Part shown: positions 16,233 through 33,995 of the stretch, one piece after another | How the letters are laid out: the number at the start of each line of letters is the position of its first letter | How positions within the stretch are numbered: position 1 is the stretch's first letter | DNA from: Mesostigma viride | Taxonomy: Eukaryota > Streptophyta > Mesostigmatophyceae > Mesostigmatales > Mesostigmataceae | NCBI GenBank assembly: GCA_009746045.1 | Contig: RPFO01000213.1 | Location: 12,859,384 to 12,923,383, forward strand | Direction: 5' to 3' | DNA: 64,000 bases | The notes under the pieces: generated by a model | What the model was told of the DNA's origin: nothing | What the model saw: only the letters and a program-made list of their open reading frames with translations | The model's database searches: none | Program-made: the position numbers and the translations under genes

Positions 16233-19200
16233 TTACTTAGCAGCCGCACCGCCCTTAAGGCGGGCGATCTCCTGGTTCTGCTTCTCGATAACGGCCTTCA
16301 AACGCGCGGTCTCCTTGGTTTCCACCGAGCGCGACGTCTGGTTGGTCACCTGATAAGCGCCGGGAGCATACATAATGTTTGCGACCGGCACACAGCACAC
16401 ATTTTAAGAGACGAATGTTAAACACGGAAGATATGCCTCGCCAACCGTCCAGTAGCAGGGGCTGCACGTGTCAGGAATAATACTATCAAAATCGCTATCT
16501 TGGCGCGAAAGGCCTGATAAACTTGGAAGTCAACCCTAAACACTAGGTCGTACGCTACAAGGGGCAGTAACGCACCTGCGTCAATGCCCCAAAATGCGCC
16601 GCGTGCGTCTCCGTTGAGGGCGTGACATCAAAGCCATCAACAACAGATCTACTGGTTACCATCAACAACTGATCTGGTTACCATCTGGTTACCATCAACA
16701 ACAGATCTACTGGTTACCTAGTAGCTAGCAGTGCAATTCATAAAAAAGCGCTGCCAACCTGCTTGATGAGCGCCGTATACTACATTGTGGACCACGTGAA
16801 CTTGGTCTCAAAGCCATCAACAACACACACCCCACACACACTGGTTCCCCAATAGCTGGAACATTATGTAACTAGCAGTGCAATGTATCGCTCGTGCCAC
16901 CCACCTGCTTGACCCGCGCGGCATACTCCATCGTGGACTTGGTCTCAAAGTCGTCCGACGCGAGCGGCGACGCGTTGGCGATCATGAGTGTTTTGGCGTT
17001 GCCGCCGATGGAGTCGCTCATCAGCTGCGTCAGCTTGTGGTTTCGGTACCTGCACGGGAACAAGGGGAGGACGTACGCCAGCGCAAACAAAGGAGCGGCG
17101 CATTTCATAAATAAAGGTGTGGCGCATTACATAAATAAAGGTGTGGCGCATTACATAAATAAAGGCGTGGCGCATTATATCAATAAAGGCGTGGCGCATT
17201 ATATCAATAAAGGCGTGGCGCATTACATCAATAGGTGAAGCGCATATGTCACGCCAGCTTCTGGTTGGGGTACCCATGGATGAGCACCCAGGGAGAAGCA
17301 CCGGCCCCATCAGGCCAGAACCCGCACTCTTTTTGTTGCCCACACGACACGTCAGCTACCAGAAGCGGTCATTGCCGGCGTACAGCACAGCCCAACGAGG
17401 AGTAATGTAGATCCTTTGTAATGAAACATTGCTAGATTACAGCCATGACCGCGCCAGCAGAGCATAGTAATGGCACACACGCAGTCTGCCTGGGTTATAA
17501 GTGGCGACCCAAACCACCAACTAGACAACACAAGTCAAGCCGAACAAACAATGCAGGAAACATTGTTTGAGGCTAAGCAGAATCAAGCATGCTCCATGAT
17601 CAAACATACAGCATGAACTCGTCGGATGTGAGCGCGGTGACCACCTTCACAACGCAACACGACACTGCTAAGACTGTACTATATTAAGATATAACTTTAC
17701 GAGCAACTTTATCACGACAGCTAGCAGCATGGACCACGCATGGTACAAACTGCACTTCCGACGTGGGTGCGGCAACAAAGTTTAGGAGCAACACAACTCT
17801 GACGAAAAGGAGACAAGGAGAGTTGGAAACACCTACTTTAGGATAGGAAACAGGAAACACCGCACGGTGGCAAGAGGCATTCATTGTGACACTAACAGCA
17901 CTCATGGTGACACGTACGGCACAAACTGCGCCTCCGAGGTGACCGCGGCGACCACCTTCAGGAACGACACAAGACTGACACGATGATAAGGGGAATACGG
18001 GAGACATGAAACTAGGGAGCTAGCAGGAAACTAGGCAGGAGCAGCTAGCGGCACTCATGGTGACACGTACGGCACAAACTGCGCCTCAGAGGTGAGCGCG
18101 GCGACCACGTCCCCCAGCGCGGAGAGCGACTTGTTGATGGCGGTCGCCTCCTTGAGCTGCACGTCGTTCTCCAGCGCGCCGCTCTTGGCCACGCGCTCGC
18201 TGCCCGCCAGGTCCACAAACGTGAGCTTGCCTGGGAAAAGGAAGAAGGGAGGAAACAACCAAGCATGGGGTCCACAAACGTGAGCTTGCCTGGGAAAAGG
18301 AAGAAGGGAGGAAACAACCAAGCAGGGGGTCTACAAACGTGAGCTTGCCTGTCGGTGGGTATGTGTTTGCCATGTAAGGGAGAGAGGTCCACAAATGTGA
18401 GCTTGCCATCAAATGAAGGACGGGGAGGGGAAGGAGGGATGAGAAAAGGGGTCCACAGACGTAGCTTGCCTGGAAATATGAAGTGGGGGGAGGAAACAAC
18501 TAAGCAGGGGGTCCACATATGTGAGCTTGCCTGCTCAAGGAAGGGTGGGGAAAGAAGAAAAGGGGTCCATGGGCTTGCCTGGGGGCGGGGGATGGAAGGG
18601 GGAACACACAAGGGGGGGAGGAGCAAGGGTTCCAGACACATGAGCTGGCCTGCGACAAACAACGGGGGCGCGGCGAGGGGGAACAGAGGGGGAGAGTGGA
18701 GGACGAGGACTGGGGTCCACAAATGTGAGCTTTCCTGGGGGTTCTGTGCGTGTGTGCCTCAGTGCATGCGTGCGTTCGCGCGCGCGCGCGCTTGTGTGTG
18801 TGTGTGTGTGTGTGTGTGTGTGTGTGTGTGTGTGTGTGTGTGTGTGTGTGTGTGTGTGTGTGTGTGCGTGCGTGCGTGCGTGCGTGCGTGCGTGCGTGCG
18901 TGCGTGTGTGTGTGTGTGTGTGTGTGTGTGTGTGCTTGTTTGATAAGGGGAGAAAGGTCCACGAAAGTGAGTTTGCCTGGAAAAAGGGGAAGGGGGGGGG
19001 GGGGGGGCAGCAGAGCACAAGATCTACATATGTGAGCTTGCCTGTTAGTCTGCGCGTTCATGTGGTGGCGACAAGGTTTTGCTAGGCAGGCTCAACATAG
19101 TTAGTACGGTTACTTGACCAAGTAAATGCCGGCTTGTGGGGGTCCGCACAAGCTTAACGTAGCGCGACATGAACATGCCTTGCCTCAACCTCACCGCGGG

Positions 19201-33995: not shown

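Follow-up and report, generated by a model that had tools for sequence, protein, structure and literature searches.

We analysed a 64,000-nucleotide stretch of the Mesostigma viride genome (contig RPFO01000213.1, positions 12,859,384 to 12,923,383; hereafter the window), taken from an assembly of 440 Mb in 2243 contigs (GCA_009746045.1), and identified a minus-strand gene in which an N-terminal VHS-GAT adaptor is joined to a C-terminal kinesin-14 motor. This fusion of adaptor and motor is almost certainly real and defines a conserved family. Taken as a whole, the product is best read as a single-chain, membrane-directed minus-end kinesin-14 carrier, to which we assign a probability of roughly 0.6. 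No paper on a green VHS-GAT kinesin family was found in the literature searched, and the term 'kinesin' occurs nowhere in the text of a review of the plant endosomal sorting complex required for transport (ESCRT; PMC12051064). As far as the searched literature shows, what is new is a conserved green family with a GAT domain added and a KCBP-like motor.

A single gene spanning adaptor and motor

The gene runs from 34229 to 16233 on the minus strand and comprises 23 exons (the strand was read through and the borders were checked by script). All 22 introns are of the GT-AG type, with AG before and GT after each internal border, and range from 120 to 1967 bp in size. Joined, the exons amount to 2715 nt in a single frame that encodes 904 amino acids and contains one stop, at its end. 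A search of a large protein database returned a gene model whose exons are joined identically (eukprot jgi/Mesvir1/12364/Mv00547-RA.1), to which our product is 100 % identical over 100 % of its length. An earlier reading made from the letters of the window (hereafter the sequence-only reading) had claimed one gene, and the continuous spliced frame, the identical database model and homologues carrying both halves bear this out. Its exons 32083-31985, 27639-27532, 26943-26758 and 21179-21042 and its end at 16233 recur in the rebuilt model. Its total of 22 exons and 866 residues also fits that model when counted from 33995, but the start placed there was wrong: an upstream exon (34229-34149; ATG, 27 amino acids) splices in frame to 34028, adding 38 residues in all. 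The resulting start, MNLLR, is common to our product and the Chlorokybus homologue (P0002).

The seam between the two halves is the intron at 27531-26944, and it is here that a rival explanation, by which two adjoining genes were wrongly joined or the frame was spliced together by chance, has to be weighed. Inside the window the seam depends on splice signals alone, the database match Mv00547 is itself a gene model, and the seam's own 26 residues are poorly conserved, with 5/22 identical between Mesostigma and Chlorokybus. Such mis-joining is opposed by the upstream sequence: read in that direction, the frame of the exon beginning at 26943 reaches a stop at 27030 without passing an in-frame ATG. 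It is opposed also by the occurrence of both halves in the Chlorokybus and chlorophyte homologues, one of them by name a transcript. Alignment of the Chlorokybus and Mesostigma proteins gave, as identical over aligned residues, 49/114 for the VHS domain, 27/81 for GAT, 49/131 for the long-helix region and 225/348 for neck plus motor. The sense strand of the seam intron contains neither TGTAA nor AATAAA, which is weak evidence because both motifs are likewise missing from 13 of the 22 introns. Since homologues share the layout and the 11 motors cluster together with full support, a gene-model error is very unlikely, and we give mis-joining a negligible chance. We accordingly rejected mis-joined neighbours, on the grounds that homologues carry both halves, and an accident of a single genome, given 11 family members.

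Domain composition of the protein

The VHS domain of the 904-amino-acid protein passes its Pfam cut-off (1.9e-10; 41.2 bits against 29.8), and the motor is matched by Kinesin (PF00225; 2.7e-96, residues 543-867) and Microtub_bd (5.9e-38). No Pfam match to MyTH4-FERM was found in this protein or its 10 relatives, nor any to FYVE, UIM or SH3 in the protein itself. AlphaFold models the VHS domain as eight helices at residues 37-167 and the GAT region as three (245-267, 276-301 and 306-330), followed by long helices at 356-535 and then the motor. Read as a coiled coil, as in the sequence-only reading, these long helices suggest that the protein is probably a dimer. A kinesin-14 neck lies immediately before the motor, at residue 524, and the corresponding neck in Chlorokybus aligns with those of KCBP (3h4s) and KAR3 (4etp). 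These results uphold two assignments of the sequence-only reading, namely an N-terminal VHS domain, on which Pfam, the eight-helix model and the family profile agree, and a kinesin-14 neck with a C-terminal motor, consistent with the PF00225 match, the neck and the position of the motor among kinesin-14s. The P-loop, switch I and switch II, described there as intact, are so in all 11 family members.

A profile built from 10 members was compared with solved VHS domains, and ranked Hrs (1.2e-18) and STAM2 (1.9e-16) over TOM1 (1.7e-13). The TOM1/TOL label first given to the adaptor thus describes the order of domains, VHS then GAT as in TOM1, TOL and GGA, but not the nearest VHS domains. For GAT, an 11-member profile searched against the PDB had TOM1 GAT as its top two matches, at a weak E of 0.021, and TOM1 or GGA1 chains supplied eight of the best nine (E 0.021 to 0.18, likewise weak). 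Together with the three modelled helices and a Pfam GAT match up to E 1 between VHS and motor in eight of the 11 members, this profile lends moderate, though not decisive, support to the presence of a GAT-like region. A tryptophan in helix 2 of VHS domains has a role in ubiquitin binding, and it is kept in eight of the nine family members whose sequence covers that region.

Distribution of the family in green algae

At least 11 proteins share this layout. Seven come from named green algae, namely Mesostigma, Chlorokybus, Bryopsis, Tetraselmis, a Pedinophyceae strain, Apatococcus and Pycnococcus (we take the labels 'Chlat1' and 'Tetstr1' to denote Chlorokybus and Tetraselmis). The sequence-only reading had proposed looking for its domain order in other green algae, and at least 10 further proteins have it. 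Members were drawn from a length-filtered motor search with the Chlorokybus query, in which the best 120 of 7079 matches, from 7973 scored candidates, were taken. Precomputed annotation placed a VHS or GAT domain beside the motor in nine of these 120 (P0001, P0002, P0014, P0015, P0018, P0019, P0020, P0023 and P0081), and P0016 and P0022 align with the nine, giving 11 members. Left out were two Chara models made up of strings of partial motors (P0013 and P0021, second and eleventh in the motor-search ranking) and P0017, a 575-amino-acid fragment that lacks the VHS and GAT part. With the Chara models set aside, land-plant KCBPs with MyTH4-FERM heads rank next after the family, the Pycnococcus member falling among them. 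A profile search with a two-sequence alignment recovered, besides the query, nine kinesins, none of them marked as having a VHS domain; it missed P0002 and is therefore silent on absence.

Two members bear on how the proteins are encoded. The name of P0019 marks it as an assembled transcript whose frame is complete, and it joins a GAT domain that passes the cut-off (31.5 bits) to the motor, its VHS domain being placed by alignment only. P0015 encodes 999 amino acids on a contig of 4330 bases, which leaves little room for introns. Because Mesostigma and Chlorokybus as well as the other named algae carry the family, it has both streptophyte and chlorophyte members. Since distant green algae share the joined protein, it probably represents a dedicated carrier of long standing and not an artefact of how the gene was read. 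The Chara models are themselves of some interest, as CBR_g19121 and CBR_g19122 of Chara braunii (P0013/P0021) consist of multiple incomplete kinesin motors one after another, which probably reflects either a tandem array or broken gene models.

Relationship of the motor to KCBP

In a motor tree of 27 rows, the 11 green motors formed one group with support of 100/100. This group lay within a larger one (97/95) that also held KCBP and KCBP-like motors, for example that of Elysia, whilst the other side of the unrooted tree held KIFC3, KAR3 and Trypanosoma vivax together with one kinesin-2 row. Seven of the 19 chosen outside rows (P0006-P0010, P0012 and P0045), whose neck pattern was unmatched, were excluded. 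A group of the green family and KCBP alone was not rejected (approximately unbiased test, p-AU 0.22). A structure search with the whole model returned KCBP first; 49 of its 50 rows were kinesins by title and one was an axoneme chain, so that this search is silent on the VHS-GAT head.

Sequence, tree and structure search thus all place the KCBP or KIN-14E class among the nearest motors, and the likeness extends to the short helical tail, which is related and resembles the beginning of the KCBP tail. The WKEQAG-type stretch of the KCBP tail, presumably part of its calmodulin site, is in contrast missing from the five green tails compared. The two also differ at the opposite end, where a VHS-GAT head stands in the green family instead of the MyTH4-FERM head of KCBP.

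A trypanosome precedent and the question of common origin

The sequence-only reading knew of no described protein with both the adaptor and the motor part. This did not hold: in TbKIFC1 of Trypanosoma brucei a VHS domain lies at the N terminus and a kinesin motor at the C terminus (PMC4560804, PMC7479354), and a figure legend in a 2006 survey places VHS among kinesin domains (PMC1434745). Both parts of TbKIFC1 are reported to be needed for its role in mitochondrial permeabilisation by APOL1 (PMC4560804). Its VHS domain binds anionic lipids and phosphatidylinositols, for which helix 7 is needed, and a VHS mutant loses endosomal-traffic proteins that are labelled by the intact form (PMC7479354). 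The protein has been reported as a mover of endosomal membranes.

A T. vivax relative found in the first protein search (P0003) served as the sequence stand-in for TbKIFC1. Its VHS domain fails the Pfam cut-off (18.9 against 29.8 bits) but is matched by green VHS profiles at 39.3 and 42.3 bits. Two VHS columns, D65 in an LD pair and W84 in a KW pair, are invariant in 10 green rows (the truncated P0016 is without them) and both residues are present in T. vivax; they are absent from the three Hrs/STAM2 lines compared and from a Mesostigma TOM1-like protein. The profile match and the shared residues would fit descent of the green and trypanosome VHS-kinesins from one early-eukaryote fusion that was lost in many lines. 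Against this, Hrs (70.6 bits) and the Mesostigma TOM1-like VHS (55.4 bits) both outscore T. vivax (42.3 bits) on the green profile. The T. vivax motor is no nearer to the green motors than to others, with 40-46 % identity to the seven kinesin-14s compared, green or not. It also lies outside the 97/95 group of green motors and KCBP, and a constrained tree that placed it with the green motors was mildly rejected (p-AU 0.038; a long branch is involved). A GAT domain was unsupported in T. vivax (-2.8 bits over the whole and 6.6 for the best stretch, against 5.6 and 4.6 for the best listed shuffles), in a test of little power where a true TOM1-like GAT scored only 8.7. TbKIFC1 and the green proteins therefore agree in an N-terminal VHS domain, a C-terminal motor and, as seen in T. 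vivax, the LD and KW residues, and differ in the placement of the motor and, going by that weak test in T. vivax, in GAT. In sum, the evidence is mildly against a single origin, which we consider improbable.

Proposed function

Kinesins with a C-terminal motor are minus-end directed (PMC1434745). The GAT domain of TOM1 binds ubiquitin, its VHS and GAT domains bind acidic lipids, the VHS and GAT domains of Arabidopsis TOLs are ubiquitin-binding, and the VHS domain of STAM is able to bind ubiquitin (PMC12051064). By analogy, a dimer of the green kinesin-14 would walk to microtubule minus ends. Its VHS and GAT heads would grip acidic or phosphoinositide-rich membrane, probably that of endosomes, and might bind ubiquitinated cargo as well. 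With adaptor and motor in one molecule, a separate linker would be unneeded. We favour a membrane or vesicle carrier with some confidence, regard the odds that endosomes are the membrane carried as about even, and consider recognition of ubiquitin by the VHS-GAT head to be somewhat doubtful.

The kinesin would work alongside an ordinary adaptor, as the genome also contains a separate TOM1-like gene (L007, 3602-5065, plus strand, G000:C1802; VHS 5.8e-30, GAT 2.5e-15) with one open frame of 488 residues from an inner ATG. The VHS-GAT kinesin therefore adds to the usual adaptor and is no substitute for it, and replacement of the TOM1-like adaptor by the kinesin was rejected on this basis. TOM1 and the TOM1-like (TOL) proteins share with it an N-terminal VHS domain followed by GAT, to which the green protein adds a motor. 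Hrs and STAM (ESCRT-0) share the best-matching solved VHS domains and differ in the FYVE, UIM and SH3 domains for which the kinesin gave no match; the Hrs/STAM complex is described as restricted to opisthokonts (PMC12051064). Separately, five MyTH4 matches on three contigs of the genome (L002-L006; G000 C1442, C335 and C1399) are candidates for KCBP or MyTH4 myosins.

The plainest rival to this carrier is a tether for lipid alone, in which charge and shape let the VHS and GAT-like parts attach to membrane and ubiquitin plays no role. The lipid binding of the TbKIFC1 VHS domain through helix 7 (PMC7479354) would suit such a tether, as would the degenerate GAT of most members and the presence of a separate VHS-GAT protein that could handle ubiquitin, whereas the leading rank of Hrs and STAM2 on the VHS profile, given the ubiquitin-binding capacity of the STAM VHS domain (PMC12051064), and the retained helix-2 tryptophan speak for ubiquitin; we hold the lipid-only alternative to be possible, if unlikely. 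Alternatively, the protein may organise mitotic or cortical microtubules with a borrowed VHS-GAT scaffold, its head binding another protein as it crosslinks microtubules in the manner of several kinesin-14s. KCBP, near to the green motor by tree and structure search, acts in division and cell shape (PMC1434745), yet VHS and GAT are domains of the membrane-trafficking type and the MyTH4-FERM head of KCBP is absent from all 11 members, and we see little likelihood of such an organiser.

Several observations weigh against the minus-end membrane carrier or its parts. The Mesostigma gene is known here from genome DNA and a gene model. The GAT domain claimed by the sequence-only reading stood by family profile and modelled helices but fell short in the Mesostigma protein itself (Pfam 0.0049; 17.5 bits against a cut-off of 31). 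Across the 11 members GAT passes this cut-off in one only (P0019); it is matched between VHS and motor up to E 1 in eight, very weakly in two of them (P0023 0.34, P0015 0.025), and is without a match up to E 1 in three. VHS passes in seven, is below the cut-off in two and is unmatched in two. The weak matches are due partly to truncated gene models and partly to divergence. The AlphaFold model as a whole is middling (mean predicted local distance difference test, pLDDT, 68.5; predicted template modelling score, pTM, 0.44) and so gives no guide to domain arrangement. TbKIFC1 is reported not to localise in the endocytic compartment (PMC4560804), which speaks against endosomes as its seat, and, as the motor of the trypanosome falls outside the green group, this precedent may be a parallel invention.

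Green algae are not known to have cytoplasmic dynein 1. In plants, dyneins are described as few or none (PMC1434745), so that what moves endosomes to minus ends there is an open question. A conserved kinesin-14 with a built-in VHS-GAT adaptor is an immediate candidate for this transport, in algae that can be cultured, and would connect ESCRT-type sorting with motor transport in a simple way. In a broader and rather unlikely scenario, the family is an ancient motor class pre-dating the chlorophyte/streptophyte split, with an ESCRT-0-like ubiquitin adaptor and a minus-end kinesin in one molecule. It would provide a green retrograde route for ubiquitinated endosomal cargo, a task performed elsewhere by dynein, would have been lost toward land plants, and may share a root with the trypanosome VHS kinesin. 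Should the trypanosome protein share its origin, the link between sorting and motor would be very old in eukaryotes.

Exon structure and intron features

TGTAA acts as a poly(A) signal in green algae, and copies lie past the stop. These and the exons are listed in Table 1.

Table 1. Features of the VHS-GAT kinesin gene, in window coordinates, with the evidence for each
Feature	Position	Strand	Content and evidence
Exon 1	34149..34229	-	Start codon 34229; residues 1-27; exact match to Mv00547, MNLLR also in Chlorokybus; missing from the sequence-only reading
Exon 2	33894..34028	-	Residues 28-72, VHS helices 1-2; splice borders, frame, AlphaFold
Exon 3	32977..33060	-	Residues 73-100, VHS; splice borders, frame, Pfam
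Exon 4	31985..32083	-	Residues 101-133, VHS with Asp and Lys-Trp signature (D103, W122); alignment
Exon 5	31579..31652	-	Residues 134-158, VHS helix 7 (NWRNAY); AlphaFold
Exon 6	30652..30689	-	Residues 158-171, VHS helix 8; AlphaFold
Exon 7	29567..29632	-	Residues 171-193, linker; splice borders, frame
Exon 8	28864..29149	-	Residues 193-288, linker and GAT helices 1-2; AlphaFold
Exon 9	28219..28297	-	Residues 288-314, GAT helices 2-3; Pfam, family profile, AlphaFold
Exon 10	27532..27639	-	Residues 315-350, GAT helix 3, NWLDY at end; Pfam, AlphaFold
Seam intron	26944..27531	-	588 bp, GT-AG; between adaptor half and motor half
Exon 11	26758..26943	-	Residues 351-412, start of long helix; AlphaFold
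Exon 12	26227..26397	-	Residues 413-469, long helices; AlphaFold
Exon 13	25583..25715	-	Residues 470-514, long helix; AlphaFold
Exon 14	25140..25189	-	Residues 514-530, kinesin-14 neck (RKKLYNQ); motif comparison
Exon 15	24629..24724	-	Residues 531-562, neck to motor (RELKGNIRV begins); motif comparison
Exon 16	22579..22661	-	Residues 563-590, motor; Pfam
Exon 17	21759..21873	-	Residues 590-628, motor, ending in GQ of the P-loop; Pfam
Exon 18	21042..21179	-	Residues 629-674, remaining P-loop (TGSGKT); motif comparison
Exon 19	20267..20464	-	Residues 675-740, motor; Pfam
Exon 20	19246..19318	-	Residues 741-765, switch I (SSRSH); motif comparison
Exon 21	18071..18230	-	Residues 765-818, switch II (DLAGSE); motif comparison
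Exon 22	16905..17049	-	Residues 818-866, motor end; Pfam
Exon 23	16233..16349	-	Residues 867-904 and stop, short helical tail; AlphaFold
TGTAA, possible poly(A) signal	15968..15972	-	Past the stop; two further TGTAA at 15894 and 15817

The longest intron (24628-22662, minus strand, 1967 bp) contains a long minisatellite of GTACACAAATAAGATGTACAAAAGTAACAA-like units. The intron between exons 11 and 12 (26757-26398, minus strand) is 360 bp long, which is divisible by three, and lacks in-frame stops, so that its retention would preserve the reading frame. Exon edges are echoed in their own adjacent introns: the adjacent intron was a better match than any of the other 21 for 9 of the 22 probes from donor edges and for 7 of the 22 from acceptor edges, against a chance expectation of about 1/22 on each side. 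Among the introns within 34148-16350, these echoes were clearest in 19245-18231, 18070-17050, 31578-30690 and 26226-25716. Local duplications spanning splice sites appear to contribute sequence to the introns of this gene, and could seed decoy splice sites within it.

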